This document shows positions 16,648 through 27,420 of a DNA stretch of 64,000 bases, in pieces. The notes under the pieces were generated by a model. The model was not told where the DNA came from, did not search any database, and was given only the letters and a program-made list of their open reading frames with translations. The stretch is from assembly GCF_002443295.1 (NCBI RefSeq), contig NZ_BAOS01000047.1, positions 1 through 64,000 on the forward strand. The letters are read 5' to 3'. The stretch comes from Candidatus Scalindua japonica. Lineage in GTDB: Bacteria > Planctomycetota > Brocadiia > Brocadiales > Scalinduaceae. How positions within the stretch are numbered: position 1 is the first letter of the stretch; the number at the start of each line of letters is the position of its first letter. Both the position numbers and the translations under genes were made by a program.

Positions 16648-18063
16648 ATGCGCAGAACAAAAATTGTCTGTACTATTGGACCGGCAAGTGATTCAGAAGA
16701 TCTGCTCGGAAAATTAATTGACGCGGGTATGAATGTAGCACGTCTCAATTTCTCGCATGGTACTCACGGAGAACACGGAGCGACAATAAGAAAGATTCGT
16801 TCTGTTTCAGAAAAAAAACAGGTTCCAATCGCTATTCTACAGGATCTGGCAGGTCCCAAAATCAGGGTTGGAAAAGTTAAAGATGGTTCAGTCTGTTTAG
16901 AGGCTGGACAGACGTTTATCTTGTCAAATGAAGACGTGCTGGGGGATGAAAACAAGACGTTCGTATCGTATCCAAAATTAACGGCAGAGGTAAAGGCTGG
17001 TAACCGGATACTCCTGGCTGATGGTAGTATTGAACTCTGCGTTGTAAAAACAGATGCCAAAAATGTGACCTGTAAAGTTCAGGTTGGAGGTGAACTTTCT
17101 TCCCATAAAGGCATTAATCTACCGGGAAGTTCTTTATCAGTCCAGGCGTTTACGGAAAAGGATCACAAAGATTTGAAATTTGGATTAGAGCAGGGGGTAG
17201 ACTACGTTGCCATGTCCTTTGTTCGCAGTAAAGAAGATATTGTGCGGATGAAAGAATTTTTAAAAAACATCAACAGGCAAGTCCCGATAATAGCAAAAGT
17301 TGAGAAACATGAGGCTCTTGTAAAAATCGATGAAATCATAGATACGGTTGACGGAATAATGGTCGCACGGGGAGATTTGGCGGTAGAAACTCCTTTAGAG
17401 AAAGTTCCGATGGTACAGAAGATGTTAATCCTGAAAAGCAATCAAAAAGGAAAGCCGGTTATTACGGCTACTCAGATGTTAAAATCTATGGTAGAAAATC
17501 CCAGACCTACTCGTGCCGAGGCCAATGATGTGGCGAATGCCGTTTTAGATGGCACCGACGCTGTAATGCTTTCGGAGGAGACAACGGTTGGCAGATATCC
17601 AGTGGAAACAGTACGTACTATGGCTAAGATCATCGAAGCTACAGAGTCAAGCCGTGTATTAAAACATCAATATTATAGACCAGATGAGGAAAAACCCGAA
17701 TCTATAGTCAGCGCTGTCTGCCATGCTACTTCAGAATTGTCTAACGATTTAAAAGCAATGGCTATTCTTACTCCAACTCAATTCGGTAGCACAGCCAGAA
17801 TGGTTGCATCCAATCGTCCGAACCAGGTAATTATCGCTTTAAGTCCTGACCCTGTGGTAGTTCGCTGTCTCAATTTAGTTTGGGGGGTATATCCCATACT
17901 CTCAGATAGATATAAGAATACAGAAGAAATGATAGAACAGGCAAAAGAGCAGGCATTACAGTCCGGTTTAGTAAAAACCGGTGATGTGGTTGTTATTACC
18001 GCAGGTATTCTAACAGACGTTGCAGGTTCTACCAACTTGATCAAAGTTGAGATATTGAAATAA
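16648..18063 (+). CDS. pyk: Pyruvate kinase
   Basis: A 471-residue pyruvate kinase. Characteristic parts are the N-terminal RRTKIVCTIGPAS, MNVARLNFSHG, DLAGPKIRVG, the B domain (about 70-170), the active-site segment IIAKVEKHEAL, MVARGDLAVE, and TATQMLKSMVENPRPTRAEANDVANAV. The C-terminal domain of about 120 residues is the allosteric domain. It converts PEP and ADP to pyruvate and ATP. It lies 33 bp after glycerate kinase in the same direction; no clear Shine-Dalgarno precedes the ATG, so translation may be coupled or leaderless-like. Confidence 0.96.
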   Translation: MRRTKIVCTIGPASDSEDLLGKLIDAGMNVARLNFSHGTHGEHGATIRKIRSVSEKKQVPIAILQDLAGPKIRVGKVKDGSVCLEAGQTFILSNEDVLGDENKTFVSYPKLTAEVKAGNRILLADGSIELCVVKTDAKNVTCKVQVGGELSSHKGINLPGSSLSVQAFTEKDHKDLKFGLEQGVDYVAMSFVRSKEDIVRMKEFLKNINRQVPIIAKVEKHEALVKIDEIIDTVDGIMVARGDLAVETPLEKVPMVQKMLILKSNQKGKPVITATQMLKSMVENPRPTRAEANDVANAVLDGTDAVMLSEETTVGRYPVETVRTMAKIIEATESSRVLKHQYYRPDEEKPESIVSAVCHATSELSNDLKAMAILTPTQFGSTARMVASNRPNQVIIALSPDPVVVRCLNLVWGVYPILSDRYKNTEEMIEQAKEQALQSGLVKTGDVVVITAGILTDVAGSTNLIKVEILK

Positions 18064-18148
18064 AAAGAAATATTTCCTTTTGCCATTCCTTTTATACTAT
18101 TCTATTTGACTGGAGGTTATCCACAAGACCCCATTATTTTAACTACAG

Positions 18149-18727
18149 TTACAGATGTTTTTTTCTCTTTTTTTTCGGTTTGACATCTACTTTGTAAATA
18201 GCTAAAGAATCCTTTTTTGTAAGCCGTCCCTGACAGAATGACATAGAGGGATCCACTATGAGTAAACGCATTGCTTCACGCCCCAGTAACATACGGTAAC
18301 TCATAAAATCCCGATTAGTAAGAGTAATAAAAATGTTTTGACGTAAACTTCCCATTTGAATATCACTACGGACAACATAACGACTCTCTTCCTGGCCATT
18401 TGAACTTTTTATCACCCGTTCGTCAGCCAGTTCTGCTGTACATTTTCTGATAATTTTATTGTTGTTTTGCAATGGATGGATATTGAATTGAACGTAATGT
18501 TTTCCGTGTTTATGAAATGCTTTTACATCAAACGCGTGCAGTGCGGAAGTCTTTGCACCAGTATCAATCTTTACTTTTATGGCAGGTATGCAAAGTTCTG
18601 GAAGATTTGCCCACTCTCTCCAGCCAACAACTATCTTGTTTATATTTTGTTTATACTTACTCTTTTTTTCTACCATCTGATTGATTCCACTCAACTCTAT
18701 TTTTTCACATTTGGTATTACAATCCAT
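18149..18727 (-). CDS. Retropepsin-like ATP-dependent zinc protease family (RimB-like)
   Basis: A 192-residue protein of the PF05618 family (called putative ATP-dependent zinc protease, though the fold is retropepsin-like). The key motif is VKIDTGAKTSALHA, with the aspartyl-protease-type DTG, followed by VRSDIQMGSLRQNIFITLTNR and YRMLLGREAMRLLIVDPSMSF. It is the last gene of a three-gene operon with rimK and an M14-type deacylase. In pseudomonads a homologue (RimB) accompanies RimK. An alternative start at Met18 (18676) would remove a poorly conserved leader. The C-terminus is Lys-rich. Confidence 0.82.
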   Translation of the reverse strand: MDCNTKCEKIELSGINQMVEKKSKYKQNINKIVVGWREWANLPELCIPAIKVKIDTGAKTSALHAFDVKAFHKHGKHYVQFNIHPLQNNNKIIRKCTAELADERVIKSSNGQEESRYVVRSDIQMGSLRQNIFITLTNRDFMSYRMLLGREAMRLLIVDPSMSFCQGRLTKKDSLAIYKVDVKPKKKRKKHL

Positions 18728-18765
18728 AAAACTGGTTTATTTCTTTTCAAATCTATCAGATATTT

Positions 18766-19800
18766 TTAATCGTCTATTTCTAACGTTTCATCAAAAAATT
18801 CTACTTGTTCTTCAACAACTTTGGAATTTTCAAAGGTGGCAATATGGAATAGAGCGTCCCCGTTATTAACGAGTGGTAACATATTCATACCTATAACAAT
18901 TCCGGTTTCTCTTGCTCTTACATTTATCCTGCCCTGCCCGAATGCATCAGAGATGACGCCAAGTATTTCATCTTTTTTTACCATGGTTCCTAACCTTTTC
19001 CTGATTCGTAGGCTCCCGCTGTGCGGTGCGCGTATCCAATGACTGGATCTGGCTACAAACACTTCTTTTTTACGTGGTCTGAGGTTGATTTTTTTCTGGT
19101 CAATCATACCAATGGTATTCATAATCGAAATGATCCCTCGCAGTGCAGAACGAATGACCTTTTCTTCATAGCGCAACGCTTCACCTCCTTCAAAGAGCAA
19201 CATTGGTATATTTTTATCTGCGGCAGCCTGTCTTAACGATCCGTCACGCAAATTGGAATTCAGAACGACCGGAACACCAAAAGCAAGAGCGAGACGTTTC
19301 GTTTCAAAGTCATCAGTAGAAGCACGGATTTGTGGTAAGTTAGTACGATGCATGGAACCTGTATGCAAATCTATGCCGTGAGTGCATTTTTCTACAATTT
19401 CTTCCATGAAAATGTAAGCAATCTGTCCTCCAAGGGAACCGGACCTGGATCCAGGAAAACATCGGTTTAAATCACGTCTATCGGGCAAGTATCGTATTTT
19501 CTGATGAAAACCGAAAACGTTTATTATTGGAACCGCAATTAATGTTCCTCTAATTCCTGAAAGTATGCTTTTTCGTGCAAGTAAACGTTTAATTGTTTCT
19601 ATACCATTGATTTCATCACCGTGAATGGCTGCTGATACAAACAAAACCGGACCGTCTTTTTTTCCACGCAAGACTTCTACGGGAATAGTCATTTCTGTAT
19701 AATCATAGAGTTTTGCGACTTTAATCCCTACCCGTTTACGTGCACCCGGTGGAATGGAAATACCGCCGATGACTATGTCGTTCGTCATGGAGATTGACAT
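18766..19800 (-). CDS. Succinylglutamate desuccinylase/aspartoacylase-family (M14-like) zinc hydrolase
   Basis: A 344-residue AstE/AspA-type member of the M14 zinc carboxypeptidase clan. Zinc ligands are seen in AAIHGDEINGIETI (His and Glu) and HGIDLHTGSMHR (His); substrate Arg candidates lie in DRRDLNRCFPGS, and the catalytic Glu in LLFEGGEALRY. The C-terminal beta-rich domain (about 245-330) is typical of the family. It starts 4 bp after the rimK stop, so the pair is likely translationally coupled. The context suggests it trims glutamate residues added by the ligase, but the substrate is inferred. Confidence 0.85.
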   Translation of the reverse strand: MSISMTNDIVIGGISIPPGARKRVGIKVAKLYDYTEMTIPVEVLRGKKDGPVLFVSAAIHGDEINGIETIKRLLARKSILSGIRGTLIAVPIINVFGFHQKIRYLPDRRDLNRCFPGSRSGSLGGQIAYIFMEEIVEKCTHGIDLHTGSMHRTNLPQIRASTDDFETKRLALAFGVPVVLNSNLRDGSLRQAAADKNIPMLLFEGGEALRYEEKVIRSALRGIISIMNTIGMIDQKKINLRPRKKEVFVARSSHWIRAPHSGSLRIRKRLGTMVKKDEILGVISDAFGQGRINVRARETGIVIGMNMLPLVNNGDALFHIATFENSKVVEEQVEFFDETLEIDD

Positions 19801-19804
19801 ATTA

Positions 19805-20719
19805 TCATCCCTGTCCTTTCATTTTGTTCGGACCCTTTAACACATCTTTCTCGATATATTCTATTATGGCTCCCGCAACATCTTTTCCTGTTGCGGTTTC
19901 AATACCTTGTAGTCCCGGAGATGAATTGACTTCCAGTACCAGAGGTCCATGCGCTGAGCGAATAATATCCACACCAGCGACATCAAGGCCCATGACTTTA
20001 GCGGTGCGAACGGCCAATGCTCTTTCATCAGGTCTTAATTTCACAATGGTGGCAGTCCCTCCCAGATGCAGGTTTGAACGGTACTCTCCCTCTTTTGCCT
20101 GTCGCAGCATGGCGGCAATGACTTTATCACCGATAACGAAACAACGGATATCAGAACCGCTTGATTCTTTGATAAATTCCTGTACAAGAAAATCCGCATC
20201 CAGACCACGAAAAGCATTGATCACACTTTCTGCGGCTTTATTAGTTTCAGCCAGTACAACACCACCACCATGTGTACTTTGCAACACTTTAACAATCAAT
20301 GGCGCTCCTCCCACAAATTCGATTAAATCTTCGGTAGCATTTGCGGAATGCGCGTAACTCGTCATCGGCATGCCAACTCCTTTGCGGGCAAGAAGCTGGT
20401 GAGCCCTTAATTTGTCGCGTGAACGGGAAATAGCCACTGACTCATTGACCGAATAAACACCACCAACCTCAAATTGACGTAACACAGCGGTACCATACGT
20501 AGTGACCGATGCTCCAATGCGAGGAATGACTGCATCAAATTTTAATCTTTCCTTCTTATCCTTTGACTTATAAAAGACAGTAGGTAGATTGGCCGTAATA
20601 TTCATATAGCAGTTTAGCACGTCAACCACTTTTACATTATGTCCTCGTTTCTGCGCCGCTTCTACCAGGCGATTCGTGGAATAAAGTCGAGCATTACGGG
20701 ATAAAATACCAATTTTCAT
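19805..20719 (-). CDS. rimK: RimK-type ATP-grasp glutamate ligase
   Basis: A 304-residue protein, collinear with E. coli RimK. It begins [18 protein letters not shown] and has [20 protein letters not shown], the ATP-grasp lysine segment [41 protein letters not shown], and the Mg-binding end [14 protein letters not shown]. RimK adds glutamate residues to the C-terminus of ribosomal protein S6 and can make poly-glutamate. A TTTTTAAAAAGGAG-type site precedes the ATG. It is the first gene of the operon with the deacylase and the protease, which suggests a write-and-erase glutamylation unit. Confidence 0.92.
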
Positions 20720-20792
20720 TTTTTCTCCTTTTTAAAAATTATATTCGTGTATCATAGCCACCTCGCAGATAGTTGCAAGAAATATAATTCGT

Positions 20793-20905
20793 AACGTTGA
20801 GGATTTTATCGGTAGTTGAGTTGGAACAATTCTATGATACGGTATCACCGTCTCAATACGTTTTTCTGTAACCAGGTACAACTACGGGATAAAATCCTCA
20901 ACGTT
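20793..20905. repeat. Long imperfect inverted repeat, 26-27-bp arms
   Basis: The left arm (20793-20818) begins AACGTTGAGGATTTTATC; the right arm (20879-20905) is its complement with a one-base difference in length near the inner end. The spacer is 60 bp and contains the small dyad GATACGGTATC. It lies between the start of rimK and the end of the GlpX-like gene, both leftward. It could be a terminator/attenuator for the upstream gene or the remnant of a small mobile element. Confidence 0.65.
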
Positions 20906-20943
20906 ATCCCGTTTACCTTGTAAAATGTGATTTCCATACATCG

Positions 20944-23910
20944 CTATTTATTCTCTAATTTCTTAATCATCTGGCCCAATTCACCCATTCTCCTTAACGC
21001 GATGATGTCCTGACCTCCCACAGCCCCGGCATTTTTTCCAAAACGTTTTCTTCTTTTATCCGGATCCAGTACTTCATCGAGAGCCTTGATTCCTTTCTTC
21101 AATAATTCTATACTTTTTAGTCGCATTCCAAACTCTTTATAAAGATCGACCTTGTTTTTCTGTTGATAGACGTAAGGCAGGTATCCAATAGATTTATCAA
21201 TCATTCGATCTAAAGCTTCAATAGCCTTTGACAGATACTCTTCCGCTCCTCCGGGATGTCCTAATACAATCAGTTCTCGGGCATGATAAGCATTTATTTC
21301 TGCCTCAAAAAGGAAGATACCCTGTTCCAGGTTATAGTCCAGTACGTTATGTTGTTCCTGTTGTATTTTCTCTCTCTGTTTCTCCTGGTGAATTATCTGT
21401 TCTTCAATGGTTAAACTGGTTGGGCGGACAAATTTTGTCTCTACCTCCACTAAAACATCATCTGCTTTCTGAAGTTGTTTCTTTGTTGGAATAAGAGCAG
21501 ACAAAAACCGCATAATGAAATCATTTTCCAGGAGAATCGGAATTTCGAAAAGTTGTGAAATATTTGTGATCGTTCCAGTATCCTGCTTGTTCCGATACTC
21601 GATAAGCGTCTGAACCCTTTCTCCAGATAGCCCGTACCTGGCTTCATATTGGGAAGCAAGTGTTGGGATGTTAATCTGTCCTTCTCTTATCTGGTTATTT
21701 TTCTCCTCATTAATACTGGTAAGAAGATCAAGAAAGGCTTTAATCATTCCATTCCGTATTGATGGAGGTGATTCTCTAAAGACCGTAACCAGGAGATAAC
21801 TCATCCAGATATCACCCTGGTTTTTATGTAGCTCCTTTTCGTATTCACTGATTATTCTTGTTTTCCGAAGTTTTACAAATACCTCATAGGCTTTTTTTAA
21901 TCTGAACTGTAGTCTTAATTTTTCCTTCTTCGGGAACTTTTTTCTCTGCCACGTGCTGACAATCTCATCATGATAATTATGGATTATTTCCCAGAGATTA
22001 AGCTCGTTGTATCTTTCCATCAAACCAACCTCATTGCCGGTATATTTATACGCTTCCTTCCAGAATGTAAAGGATTCAGGGATATAATTGAGGGCCTTAT
22101 TTTTTCCTTCGACTCCCTTTATCCAGAGATCCTCCGCTTTTTGAATGACCATATCCATTTTATCAAGAGCTATTCTTCTGAGGAAACGACGTATATGAAG
22201 AGAATCTTCATGGTCAATACCGTCCAATGCTTTTTGAAAAAACTCTGCAGCTTTTTTATTAGCGACTTTGGGGTTTCCCAGACCAAATGCTTCTAATCCT
22301 TTAATATATAACTGCGCGGCAGTTATTTTTTTCTTGAATTTTTTTAAATTGTTTTCTTCTGAATACTTTAACGCTTTTTGAATGGTTTGTGCGGCCTTCT
22401 TCCATTTTCCAAATTCCGCATAGGCAAGACTCAAGTGATAGAGGTCATCTGCATTTCTGTCATCTTGTCCGGATTCCCGAATCTTTGTCAGGTAATAAGA
22501 GATACTTGTCTCAAACTCTAACTCCAGATTAATGATCTTTTTCTCTTTGGAACCGAGCCATAACACATTCACCATCGTCTTCCCTGTCTCATCATCAGTC
22601 CGTACTCCTTGAATTTCTCCACCCAGGCAGGGATTATCTTTGATTATCCCTATAGCCATAACGCTTTCACGGAGATCACCTTTGAACAAGTCCTGGTGAG
22701 TACAGATTTTGTTTTGACCGGTAACAGCATCGATCAGATCAAGGTTGAATCGTTTCGCATTTGTTTGCTCGCGTGGTGAAAAATTATTAATAGTATCAAA
22801 ATGAGTTCTCGCCTCACCCTGATAAAGATACTCTGTCGCGATAGGTATGCCGGAAAAATTACCTCCATATTTTGTGACAAGCCAGGCGCTGTTAAGGGCA
22901 CCCGGCATCCTTCCGGAACCAATCAGCAGATCAATATCCCCGAGAGCTATCTCAATGCCCTGCGACCAGTCATCATGTAATACCCATTCAATATTTCCTT
23001 CAGTAAGTCTGCCTGAACCTTCTTTCAGTTCTCTGCCTATTTTAAAAAAATCTTTTTTACCCACATCAAAACCATTCATCTTGAATGCATTATAAAGATC
23101 CTCATGACGCTCTCTCCAGAGAATAGCAATCTTCACATCCCTACGGGTTTCCCCCTTTTCTCCTGCTATAGCATCGATTCCTTCACCAAGTAATGTTACC
23201 ATGAGGTTAATATCCAGAGCATTACTCATTGATTGAAGGGCACATTCAAATATTTTCTTTAAATCAATATCCTTATATTCTTCACTGACAACAATCTTAA
23301 ACATATAATCATCAGGAAGGTCCGGAAAGGCATATGGATGTCCTTCCCTGACAGCACCAAACAGCAGAGATATGAGTGTTCCTGATTTCTCAGGGAGAAC
23401 AATACCCTGTTCAGATTCTAATATAGTCAAGACCAGATCAACTTCCCTCCCTTCAAAACAATATCCCAGTGTTTCTCCATGAATCAGGGAGGGTTTTTCA
23501 ACCGAATTAATACCCTTTCGTGCGCACTCCGTACATTTGACAACGACAAATACATCCCGGGTATTTATCAATTCACGTAACCACCAGACCTGCATACCAC
23601 GATATCGTAATATATTTATAGGATTCCCATTCGTAATTACATATTTGCCTGTATGGGCTGTTATCCTGCCTGCCATTATGGCTGCTCCCACTACGAGCTC
23701 TCCCAATGTACCGTTTAAATCCACCAATATTTCATCAGAATCAATTTTTCCCTGTCGATTTCCACTCATAAGACGATTGATATCTTTAACGTTAAGCCCA
23801 TGAACATGAGGATCTCGTTTTGGTTCAAACGAAACCTCTATTGCCTCTTTTAAATTGAGTATATTTGGGTTATAGATTTTGCTAATGGTTTTTTTCTTAC
23901 TATTTGTCAT
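20944..23910 (-). CDS. GlpX-like domain fused to a helical-repeat domain
   Basis: A 988-residue protein with no obvious full-length family. Residues about 210-460 read like class II fructose-1,6-bisphosphatase (GlpX): KIAILWRERHEDLYNAF resembles the ILDRPRHEEL segment, DIDLLIGSGRMPGALNSAW the GIGGAPEGV segment, TKYGGNFSG the LGGxxQG segment, and CTHQDLFKGD...IQGVRTDDETGKT the closing strands. The catalytic DPIDGT and GEGERDE motifs are not visible and the Glu of GGAPEG is lost, so phosphatase activity is doubtful. Residues about 480-988 are charged helices with TPR-like pairs (LAYAEFGKWKKAAQTIQKAL; LIVLGHPGGAEEYLSKAIEAL). No membrane segment or signal peptide. It precedes the rimK operon in the same direction, 224 bp away. 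Confidence 0.6.
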   Translation of the reverse strand: MTNSKKKTISKIYNPNILNLKEAIEVSFEPKRDPHVHGLNVKDINRLMSGNRQGKIDSDEILVDLNGTLGELVVGAAIMAGRITAHTGKYVITNGNPINILRYRGMQVWWLRELINTRDVFVVVKCTECARKGINSVEKPSLIHGETLGYCFEGREVDLVLTILESEQGIVLPEKSGTLISLLFGAVREGHPYAFPDLPDDYMFKIVVSEEYKDIDLKKIFECALQSMSNALDINLMVTLLGEGIDAIAGEKGETRRDVKIAILWRERHEDLYNAFKMNGFDVGKKDFFKIGRELKEGSGRLTEGNIEWVLHDDWSQGIEIALGDIDLLIGSGRMPGALNSAWLVTKYGGNFSGIPIATEYLYQGEARTHFDTINNFSPREQTNAKRFNLDLIDAVTGQNKICTHQDLFKGDLRESVMAIGIIKDNPCLGGEIQGVRTDDETGKTMVNVLWLGSKEKKIINLELEFETSISYYLTKIRESGQDDRNADDLYHLSLAYAEFGKWKKAAQTIQKALKYSEENNLKKFKKKITAAQLYIKGLEAFGLGNPKVANKKAAEFFQKALDGIDHEDSLHIRRFLRRIALDKMDMVIQKAEDLWIKGVEGKNKALNYIPESFTFWKEAYKYTGNEVGLMERYNELNLWEIIHNYHDEIVSTWQRKKFPKKEKLRLQFRLKKAYEVFVKLRKTRIISEYEKELHKNQGDIWMSYLLVTVFRESPPSIRNGMIKAFLDLLTSINEEKNNQIREGQINIPTLASQYEARYGLSGERVQTLIEYRNKQDTGTITNISQLFEIPILLENDFIMRFLSALIPTKKQLQKADDVLVEVETKFVRPTSLTIEEQIIHQEKQREKIQQEQHNVLDYNLEQGIFLFEAEINAYHARELIVLGHPGGAEEYLSKAIEALDRMIDKSIGYLPYVYQQKNKVDLYKEFGMRLKSIELLKKGIKALDEVLDPDKRRKRFGKNAGAVGGQDIIALRRMGELGQMIKKLENK

Positions 23911-23990
23911 CTCTTTATATTCCAGTGTTACTTTTTTTCTACACCAACGCTTTCCATGAAAAATTTATTTTCCGGGAAAATAATAAAAAT

Positions 23991-25304
23991 TTAAGCATTT
24001 TTAACATCACTTGTTTTAAACTCTCTCAAGAGCCGCAGAAATAATAAAGGACTGAGGCTCATGGCAGAAGAGATAATTACCATCCAGGCAAAACCGTGTC
24101 CCGGTTCCTGATACACTACTTCGCCATCAACATACTTTACAACCGCAAAAAAGTCAAAAATTCTCCCTCCTACCCACGCACCAGCCATTGAACCAATATT
24201 GCATAAACTCATCATAACCGCAAACACCGTCCCTTCAATCCCTTTCGGGCATGCCCGCACGGCAACTCTCATTGAACAGACAAACCCGATCATAGAAACG
24301 AAAGCACCAATTATAAAAATGAAAAGCAGTAAAGGATAGAAATAAACGGTCCAGACATATGTCAAGTTGATTCCCGCTCCAAGGAGAAGTGATAATTTCA
24401 GTATTCTTCTTATGTCCCCTTCTCGCATATATTCCCGGTAATAGCGTAATCCCAGAAATCCGCCAAAAGCGCCAATCGCACTTATTATCCCTCGCATAAA
24501 AGGGGAATAACCAAGTATCTTTCCCATAAAATACTGCAATGCGCTGGGGCTGAAAACGGGAGCCATATTCAAGATGAACAAAAAAATAGCCGCGGCAATC
24601 AAAAACTTTACTGAACCTTCATAAGATGATCTCTTGAATAGGTGGCCCCAGTCTTTTGTGGAATGAACATTTTTATCCTCTTCTTTCAAAGAACTGAAAG
24701 CGACAATACAGAGAGTCAGAGGGGCAAGTGACATCACCACAAAAGTGATTTTTTCTCCAAAGAAATTTATCAGAATTCCTCCTCCTATACCGCTTAGAAA
24801 TGCTCCAAAACTCCTTGTCTCCCACATTATTGCCTGTATCATCCCCTCTTCACGGTTATCTTTTTTACACATATCAACACCATGCGCATCACATGCAACA
24901 TCGGTAAAACCAAATCCAAAATTCAGGAAAAATGCGGCAAATACAAACATCCAATAGGATTGTACGATACTGCCTATGGCAATTGAGCTTAAAAATACGA
25001 TAAAGCTGCAGATAATAACATACGGTATTCTGCGCCTACCGGATATTGGAATATGATCAGAAATAAAACCCCAGAATGGCTTTATAAACCATGGGAATTG
25101 CATCAATATTGTCATTGACACAAGCTCGCCCATTGTTAAATTAAATTGCCTTTGCAGATAGATCGGGAATGCAATGCCTGTTATTCCAAACACAAGTCCC
25201 TGGGCAAAGTAAGAAGCGGAAAAAATCCTGTACCGTGCTTCAAATAATTTCTTTGTTGAATGCCAACCCAGAAAATCTTTCGCCACAACAAATAACTTTT
25301 TCAT
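23991..25304 (-). CDS. MFS transporter, BT1/folate-biopterin-transporter-like
   Basis: A 437-residue membrane protein with about 12 hydrophobic segments. The loop after helix 2 reads IKPFWGFISDHIPISGRRR, close to the KPLyGxxSDxxPixGxRRR signature of the BT1/FBT branch of the major facilitator superfamily, and helix 4 has GFGFTDVACDAHGVD, matching the conserved Asp-rich helix of that branch. The substrate is unknown: characterised FBT members carry folates or biopterins, and many bacterial relatives are uncharacterised. It lies 80 bp upstream of the GlpX-like gene on the same strand, so co-transcription is possible. Confidence 0.75.
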   Translation of the reverse strand: MKKLFVVAKDFLGWHSTKKLFEARYRIFSASYFAQGLVFGITGIAFPIYLQRQFNLTMGELVSMTILMQFPWFIKPFWGFISDHIPISGRRRIPYVIICSFIVFLSSIAIGSIVQSYWMFVFAAFFLNFGFGFTDVACDAHGVDMCKKDNREEGMIQAIMWETRSFGAFLSGIGGGILINFFGEKITFVVMSLAPLTLCIVAFSSLKEEDKNVHSTKDWGHLFKRSSYEGSVKFLIAAAIFLFILNMAPVFSPSALQYFMGKILGYSPFMRGIISAIGAFGGFLGLRYYREYMREGDIRRILKLSLLLGAGINLTYVWTVYFYPLLLFIFIIGAFVSMIGFVCSMRVAVRACPKGIEGTVFAVMMSLCNIGSMAGAWVGGRIFDFFAVVKYVDGEVVYQEPGHGFAWMVIISSAMSLSPLLFLRLLREFKTSDVKNA

Positions 25305-25644
25305 ACGCGTATTCCAGTCTGTTTAATCATGAATATTGTAATAAATATGGTGTTACACTATGTAGTTAGGCAAAGAGACGAAACACAACGCTATCTTTAT
25401 GGAAAAGCTTAGTCAAGAAAAATCACAGGAAAAACCTTTTTGCTGATTTTGAATTGTCAGTTTGGGGTATTCTGTTATAATATTTGTTCAAAAATTACAT
25501 AGATGTTTTTAGATACTCCCTTACCATCTCCCCTTCCGAAAGAGGTGGTGGGGATCCTGCTGAATCCCTACTCAACATCTTCAGGAGGGAATTGAAGGGT
25601 AACGCATTGAAATTCGTTTACATTTAATCAGGAGGTTACTTTAA
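25305..25644. other. Divergent promoter region between MFS and SLC13 genes
   Basis: 340 bp with no gene. Around 25525-25600 a GC-richer stretch contains an imperfect stem, CTCCCCTTCC with GGTGGTGGGGA, resembling dispersed intergenic repeats. The SLC13 ribosome site AGGAGG lies at 25630-25635. No clear promoter boxes are assigned. Confidence 0.4.
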
Positions 25645-27420
25645 TTGCCCGATTTGCAATCCATCATGGTCCTTGTAGTGGTTGTTGCTGCAATGATCCT
25701 CTTTATAACAGAAAAATTACGGGTAGACTTGATAGCCCTCTGTGTATTGCTTGCTTTAATTATACTGGGATTAGTAGGCCACAATCAGGCACTCTATGGT
25801 TTTGCTAATCAGGCAACCGCGACTATCGTTGCCATGTTTGTTTTAAGTGCAGGGTTAGATCGTGCTGGCCTGGTCGAGTGGCTTGCGCGCCGGTTGGACC
25901 GCCTGGCAGGGAAAACCGAACCCCGGCTCATCATTGTTATCTGTATAGCTATAGCCTTCCTGTCGGCATTCATGATAAATACTGCCGCAGTAGCGGTATT
26001 TATTCCTATTACAATCGTACTCGCAAAATCGCGGAAGATTTCTGCGTCCAGGGTATTGATGCCGCTATCATTTGCAAGCCAGTTTGGTGGAGTATGTACA
26101 TTGATTGGCACTTCTACCAATATCCTCGTTAACTCGATCGCCGTTGACAAAGGCATGGATGCTTTCACGTTTTTTGAGTTTGCACCATTGGGGCTGGCTA
26201 TGACTGTTGTTGGCATAATCTATCTGATATCAGCTCGCGGGCTTCTCCCGAAGCGTAAGGCTGGAGAGCAGCAGGTGGACAGGTATCATCTTGCCGATTA
26301 TCTTGCTGAACTGCAGGTAACAAAGAAATCATCGCTCATTGGTACAACCTGGATAAAGAGCAAGCTGAAACAGAATGAAAAAGTAAACCTTATTAAGTTC
26401 ATACGAAATGATAAGGCAACAACAAAGCCCCCAAAGACCAAGATGAGAGAGGGTGACATTCTCCTGCTTCATGGGAATATGGATACACTGATTGCCATGC
26501 AGGATAAATATAAATTACGCTTACATGCGAAGGCAAAGATGGATGATAAAAAGATCAGTTCTGATGAAATTAAGCTGATTGAAGTCCTTATACCACCGCA
26601 ATCAAAATTAGTAGATCATACATTACAAACATTTGAATTTTTTCGTCGTTTCGGCTGTATTGTCTTTGCAGTACAACGTCGTGGAAAGATTATACGAGAT
26701 CGTGTGGCAGAGATAAATCTCAAAGATGGAGACACACTGCTCCTTGAGGCAGGTAAGGACGTTGTGTCCAGGCTCCTGAAATCCCGTGATCTTATCGTAA
26801 CGAACGAATTAACGGAGTTGTATGTACGAAAAGATAAGGCGATCGTCGCATTGTTTGTGTTTCTTACCGTAATAACCTTAACCGTATTACATATTATTCC
26901 CATTCTGGTTGCTGCTTTGATAGGCGCTATTGGCATGGTCTTAGGCCGTTGTCTTACTCTTGAGGAGGCCTACGAAGCTATCGATTGGAAAATTATCTTT
27001 CTTCTTGGGGGTATTTTACCATTGGGGCTTGCTATGGAGCAGAGTGGAGCTGCTCTCTGGATGACAAATACAATCTTGAGTCCCTTTCTGAACCTGGGTC
27101 CTGTTGTGGTTCTGGCAGTTCTGTACATAATAACAGCTATACTTACTGAATCGATGTCAAACAGCGCAGCCGCAATAATACTTGCTCCTATAGGTCTGTC
27201 TGTTGCAACAACTATGAATGTAGATCCGAGACCGTTTCTGGTGGCGATAACCTTTGCTGCTTCTACCAGTTTTGCAACTCCGATTGGATATCAGACAAAT
27301 ACGATGGTTTATTCCCCCGGAGGTTATCGATTTACGGACTATACCCGTGTTGGCGCGCCGCTTAACCTGATATTCTGGGGATTGGCAGTACTACTCATAC
27401 CATTGCTATGGCCATTTTAG
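25645..27420 (+). CDS. SLC13-family permease with two RCK_C-like domains
   Basis: The reading frame starts with TTG at 25645, 9 bases after a perfect AGGAGG, giving 591 residues. The halves of the membrane domain show NTAAVAVFIPI and QFGGVCTLIGTSTNILVNS (first half) and ESMSNSAAAIILAPIG with TSFATPIGYQTNTMVYSPGGYRF (second half), the SLC13/DASS signatures. Between them (about 205-400) lie two RCK_C/TrkA-C-like domains, with REGDILLLHGN and LKDGDTLLLEAG. Such proteins carry dicarboxylates, sulfate or other anions with Na+ or H+; the cargo cannot be read from the sequence. It is transcribed alone. Confidence 0.88.
   Translation: MPDLQSIMVLVVVVAAMILFITEKLRVDLIALCVLLALIILGLVGHNQALYGFANQATATIVAMFVLSAGLDRAGLVEWLARRLDRLAGKTEPRLIIVICIAIAFLSAFMINTAAVAVFIPITIVLAKSRKISASRVLMPLSFASQFGGVCTLIGTSTNILVNSIAVDKGMDAFTFFEFAPLGLAMTVVGIIYLISARGLLPKRKAGEQQVDRYHLADYLAELQVTKKSSLIGTTWIKSKLKQNEKVNLIKFIRNDKATTKPPKTKMREGDILLLHGNMDTLIAMQDKYKLRLHAKAKMDDKKISSDEIKLIEVLIPPQSKLVDHTLQTFEFFRRFGCIVFAVQRRGKIIRDRVAEINLKDGDTLLLEAGKDVVSRLLKSRDLIVTNELTELYVRKDKAIVALFVFLTVITLTVLHIIPILVAALIGAIGMVLGRCLTLEEAYEAIDWKIIFLLGGILPLGLAMEQSGAALWMTNTILSPFLNLGPVVVLAVLYIITAILTESMSNSAAAIILAPIGLSVATTMNVDPRPFLVAITFAASTSFATPIGYQTNTMVYSPGGYRFTDYTRVGAPLNLIFWGLAVLLIPLLWPF

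Follow-up and report, generated by a model that had tools for sequence, protein, structure and literature searches.

Domain architecture of the fusion protein

The locus at positions 20944-23910 (minus strand) of the window, by which we mean the whole 64,000-nucleotide stretch of Candidatus Scalindua japonica DNA analysed here, raises the question of what is done by a 988-residue protein that resembles a fructose-1,6-bisphosphatase (FBPase) with degraded catalytic motifs and ends in a long helical tail. The frame is intact, its strand and coordinates are as first given, and it encodes a divergent class II FBPase (GlpX) domain followed by TPR-like helices. The kinship with GlpX, proposed for it in a preliminary description, is borne out at the sequence level by a match to PF03320 (FBPase_glpX) at residues 137-282 (E=3.9e-8; 33 bits, curated cut-off 27) and by a profile-profile comparison (hhalign) of the seven proteins of this type, designated type B, with eight canonical planctomycete GlpX proteins (92% probability, E=6e-7, residues 127-412). 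Together with an alignment to E. coli GlpX, these matches place the degenerate domain at about residues 60-465 (22516-23733, minus strand); it had been set at residues 200-460, of which the end agrees (~465) but the start moves to about 60-100. The remaining ~520 residues (469-988; 20947-22506, minus strand) are nearly all helix in the AlphaFold model, with pLDDT mostly 60-84. The earlier view of this half as TPR-like is therefore upheld for its helices but finds little echo in Pfam, where a single weak TPR_2 match (E=0.003, 18 bits) falls below the cut-off of 27.

A phmmer search of PDB chains with the 988-residue protein found no GlpX and only weak TPR matches, and a search of the same chains with a profile of its shorter relatives, designated type A, found GlpX. 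The AlphaFold model of type A (mean pLDDT 74, pTM 0.75) superposes on E. coli GlpX 2R8T over 284 residues (Z 25.1, 3.2 A), all solved GlpX structures stand at the top of its fold-comparison list and its tail matches TPR proteins; confidence is low at residues 102-160, which hold the loops of E57 and D85. The GlpX half of the type B model is unreliable (pLDDT <50), probably because it was modelled beside type A relatives only, which are ~24% identical. Fold comparison of that model returned TPR-like helical proteins only and is uninformative on the GlpX half.

Distribution and origin of the family

A type A paralogue of 885 residues (L001), built of the same two parts, is encoded in the same genome. 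Type A proteins, about 880 residues long, are present in most Brocadiales genomes sampled, and one or other type was detected in 45 of 62 Brocadiales genomes. Their domains are recognised far more readily by Pfam, with E values for PF03320 down to 1e-45 and TPR matches (43 bits) in 35 of 36 members. Type B was found in seven Scalinduaceae genomes, five from the genus of Scalindua japonica (g1, source genome included) and two from the sister genus g4, with identities to the window protein of 83-84% and 69-70%, respectively. Identity between the two types is about 24-26%, and in the tree the type B proteins group together with full support, set apart by a very long branch. As both types share both domains in the same order and their tails are homologous end to end (hhalign 98.7%, 427 columns), the fusion had a single origin.

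When named genomes were scanned with the C-terminal region of type A, the 41 loci recovered all belonged to anammox bacteria (Scalindua, Brocadia, Jettenia, Loosdrechtia and Anammoxibacter) or planctomycete bins, and a non-exhaustive scan of 294 planctomycete genomes gave above-noise matches in Brocadiales only. We found no published description of the fusion, of either type, in the open-access literature, in line with what had been supposed from the reading frame. Judged by sequence homology, it is an undescribed family of two branches, restricted to Brocadiales so far as these non-exhaustive scans reach.

Catalytic residues are replaced and ligand contacts are kept

The active site was compared in an alignment of nine canonical GlpX, 37 type A and seven type B domains, i.e. 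44 fusion proteins, using E. coli numbering; the E. coli reference sequence agrees with a stretch of PDB chain 1ni9. The residues checked were those of EC 3.1.3.11, namely the metal and catalytic residues D33, E57, D85, T90 and E213 and the substrate contacts Y119, K/R164, R166, D188 and E88. In M. tuberculosis GlpX the interaction of D33 with T90 is needed for catalysis and the metal is bound by D85, E88 and E213 (PMC5892879).

The replacements fall on the catalytic side of this site. In the window protein (all codons on the minus strand) R104 (23599-23601) replaces catalytic Asp33 and K132 (23515-23517) replaces the conserved Asp61 of the GEGExDE motif, with Arg and Lys at these positions in all 44 proteins. 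The metal ligand Asp85 of DPIEGT has given way to T162 (23425-23427), the position being Ser in 37/37 type A and Asn or Thr in 7/7 type B proteins. E167 (23410-23412) stands for catalytic Thr90, a position occupied by Asp or Glu and a few others and never by Thr (0/44). G337 (22900-22902) replaces the metal ligand Glu213, which is Gly in all seven type B proteins and still Glu in 36/37 of type A. The absence of DPIDGT noted earlier is thus confirmed, LTILESE standing in its place, as is the loss of Glu from GGAPEG. The GEGERDE motif had been called absent as well; it is degraded, but its E57 survives as E128 within TECARK. The g4 proteins read TEGERK at this place, which shows that the erosion is graded.

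The substrate side was found to be intact. Y202 (23305-23307; E. coli Tyr119), R266 (23113-23115; E. coli Lys164, M. tuberculosis Arg159) and R268 (23107-23109; E. coli Arg166) are Tyr, Arg and Arg in 44/44 proteins, and their equivalents hold the 6-phosphate in M. tuberculosis GlpX, where those of D188 and E88 hold the sugar hydroxyls (PMC5892879). The segment RERHEDL had been aligned by eye with class II FBPase; the resemblance is real, and the segment is more than a remnant of the fold, as both its arginines align with the 6-phosphate clamp. E57, E88 and D188 are likewise invariant in all 44 proteins. The clamp is not absolute, since an in-paralogue of type A from Anammoxibacter outside this set (L112) has His at R166. 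With the clamp and hydroxyl contacts kept and the catalytic residues replaced, the half of the site that grips the ligand has been retained and the half that cuts it lost.

Type A, and perhaps B, might still be catalytically active, as a phosphatase or some other phosphoryl or sugar enzyme with rebuilt catalytic residues and a different sugar phosphate as substrate. Type A keeps E57, E59, E88 and E213 along with the GGxPE loop, so that some metal binding by it is possible, and the substitutions follow one uniform pattern, not a random one (R33, K61, S85, N89, mostly D90), as would be the case for a new active site. However, the activating pair D33-T90 and the metal ligand D85 are gone throughout, type B lacks E213 too, basic residues replace acidic ones where metal should bind, and M. 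tuberculosis GlpX mutated at the same Thr (T84A) is inactive (PMC5892879), on account of which we consider continued catalysis decidedly unlikely.

A second alternative is that the GlpX domain serves only as a structural or oligomerisation platform for the TPR scaffold and binds no ligand. GlpX enzymes are known as 222 tetramers (PMC5892879), and merely 24 of the 75 positions invariant in canonical GlpX survive in type B. Yet all four canonical-invariant ligand contacts tested (Y119, R166, E88 and D188) are among the survivors (chance 0.009, the positions having been picked post hoc), and a pure platform would have no need of them; we therefore regard this explanation as unlikely.

Selection and a separate fructose-1,6-bisphosphatase

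The type B gene is under purifying selection, the pattern of a functional protein, with whole-gene dN/dS of 0.13-0.21 and similar values for its two halves (0.10-0.25). These values and the intact reading frames of all seven orthologues rule out independent pseudogene decay.

The Scalindua japonica genome (4.8 Mb) has a gene for a class I FBPase (G000:C40) and none for canonical GlpX. PF00316 was present in 46 of the 61 Brocadiales genomes searched, and the family f2, which is without the fusion, carries PF01950 instead. Since its own genome and most Brocadiales genomes already have a class I FBPase, a role of the fusion as the housekeeping FBPase was rejected. Another anammox bacterium, Kuenenia, has been described as making sugars via gluconeogenesis (PMC8027424).

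Proposed function

The replacement of catalytic residues in all relatives, the invariance of the binding residues and the class I FBPase in the same genome support the pseudo-enzyme reading suggested for this frame at the outset, and both types look like sugar-phosphate sensors or adaptors rather than enzymes. In particular, the GlpX domain may be a catalytically dead regulatory module that binds a sugar phosphate and sits on a TPR scaffold for protein interaction, the reading that we favour, although we consider its chances evenly balanced. The kept 6-phosphate clamp and sugar-hydroxyl contacts would accommodate fructose 6-phosphate, fructose 1,6-bisphosphate or a similar sugar phosphate. Two conserved acidic residues of the catalytic site, adjacent to the metal positions, are replaced by Arg and Lys, which could take up a second phosphate with no need of metals, and the ligand would thus be bound and not cut. 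The state of the ligand would then alter binding by the helical tail, whose most plausible partners would be enzymes of central carbon and storage metabolism or their regulators.

Compared with the class II FBPase GlpX (PF03320; E. coli 3D1R/2R8T, M. tuberculosis 6AYU), the fusion shares the fold (type A model), the 6-phosphate clamp and E57, E88 and D188, but has D33, D85 and T90 replaced (in type B also E213), adds about 450-520 residues of TPR helices and coexists with a class I enzyme. Type A (L001 in this genome; L041-L081) has lost D33, D61, D85 and T90 as has type B, but it retains E59, E213 and the GGxPE loop and is far wider in Brocadiales.

The glucokinase regulatory protein of animals is related to a fold of sugar-phosphate enzymes and is itself non-catalytic; it binds fructose 6-phosphate or fructose 1-phosphate and regulates a partner enzyme. 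It has the SIS fold, unrelated to GlpX, and no TPR, and its likeness to the fusion is one of functional analogy only.

Anammox bacteria are responsible for much of the nitrogen lost as N2, and their metabolism beyond core energy generation is little known (PMC8027424). Restricted to its lineage and widely kept there, a pseudo-FBPase whose grip on the sugar phosphate is intact would make a candidate regulator at the branch point of gluconeogenesis and glycogen. It would also be a case of an enzyme turned sensor, in which the series from canonical GlpX through type A and g4 type B to the window protein displays in what order the catalytic residues disappeared. Automatic annotation of type A and B genes as FBPases on the basis of Pfam would mislead.

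Gene neighbourhood and the RimK system

Downstream of the type B gene and on the same strand lie genes for a RimK-type alpha-L-glutamate ligase (19805-20719; NCBIfam NF007764, E=3e-127), an AstE/AspA-family deacylase of the RimK operon (18766-19800; Pfam PF24827) and a RimB-like retropepsin-type protease (18149-18727; Pfam PF05618, NF052261 below its cut-off). On the plus strand they are followed by pyruvate kinase (16648-18063; NCBIfam), which lies within about 6 kb of type B in four of the five genomes of g1, and on the other side an SLC13/CitMHS-type transporter with TrkA_C domains (25645-27420, plus strand; Pfam) is found beside type B in all five. In both g4 genomes type B stands between a class I aldolase and an alpha-glucan (glycogen) phosphorylase, all co-directional, one genome having an extra gene on each side; any argument from this context for a sugar-phosphate role is post hoc. 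The neighbourhoods of type A have no partner conserved beyond genus level.

The tie to the rimK operon suspected earlier is thus only in part a matter of adjacency, the co-directional RimK-AspA-RimB genes adjoining type B in three of the five g1 genomes, which is three of all seven genomes with type B, and not in the other four. Co-occurrence is broader: among 17 genomes of the family, a RimB homologue was present in 6/7 with type B and 0/10 without (Fisher 6e-4, with genome size, the genomes with B being mostly larger, and incomplete assemblies as confounders), and a RimK above the cut-off in 6/7 and 1/10, plus one partial. Type B could on these grounds be an accessory of the RimK/AspA/RimB system, such as an adaptor tying glutamylation of S6 or of another target to the level of a sugar phosphate. 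Against this, the RimK genes of three genomes (G010, G015 and G016) are on other contigs, one genome (G008) has type B with neither RimB nor RimK above the cut-off, RimK occurs without type B in G002 and probably in G005, and the island is prone to exchange. Moreover, genome pairs compared for both types show a type B dS of about half the type A value, which makes exchange between species likely and weakens arguments from linkage. We hold an accessory role to be very improbable.

The more general sensor reading can be sharpened into one in which the charge-swapped, metal-free pocket (D33R, D61K) is a dedicated receptor for fructose bisphosphate serving anammox bacteria as their sugar-phosphate sensor, with type B in Scalindua coupling the sugar-bisphosphate level to transport and to modification that depends on RimK; stated in such detail, it would be a long shot.

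An island of pyruvate kinase, one SLC13 transporter (SLC13a), RimB-AspA-RimK and a second (SLC13b) recurs, in the window at 16648-27420 and in another genome at G016:C96:41187-58622. In the latter it is without type B, which is located elsewhere, between the aldolase and glycogen phosphorylase genes, and in the window itself the island has no SLC13a next to it. A type A gene of Anammoxibacter (L073) is also flanked by the two transporters. Copies of SLC13a from Scalindua-type genomes are 89-91% identical (dS 0.4) to those of Anammoxibacter, which belongs to a different family (L073:3278-7228; L100-L102), and this identity suggests recent horizontal exchange.

Additional observations on the family

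Another divergent GlpX-like protein of 451 residues, without a TPR tail and reading APIDGR where DPIEGT is expected, is encoded at L114:7489-8841 in a different planctomycete family (G130). Within the helical tail of the fusion, a helix-hairpin-helix (HHH_3) signal was seen in 14 of the 36 proteins searched (best E 1e-4), for instance at residues 676-714 of L045. The type A gene of Brocadia carolinensis (L118; L076) is split into three frames of 366, 188 and 310 residues, through either real decay or an assembly error, and Anammoxibacter OFTM134 (G019) carries three type A copies (L081, L112 and L113).
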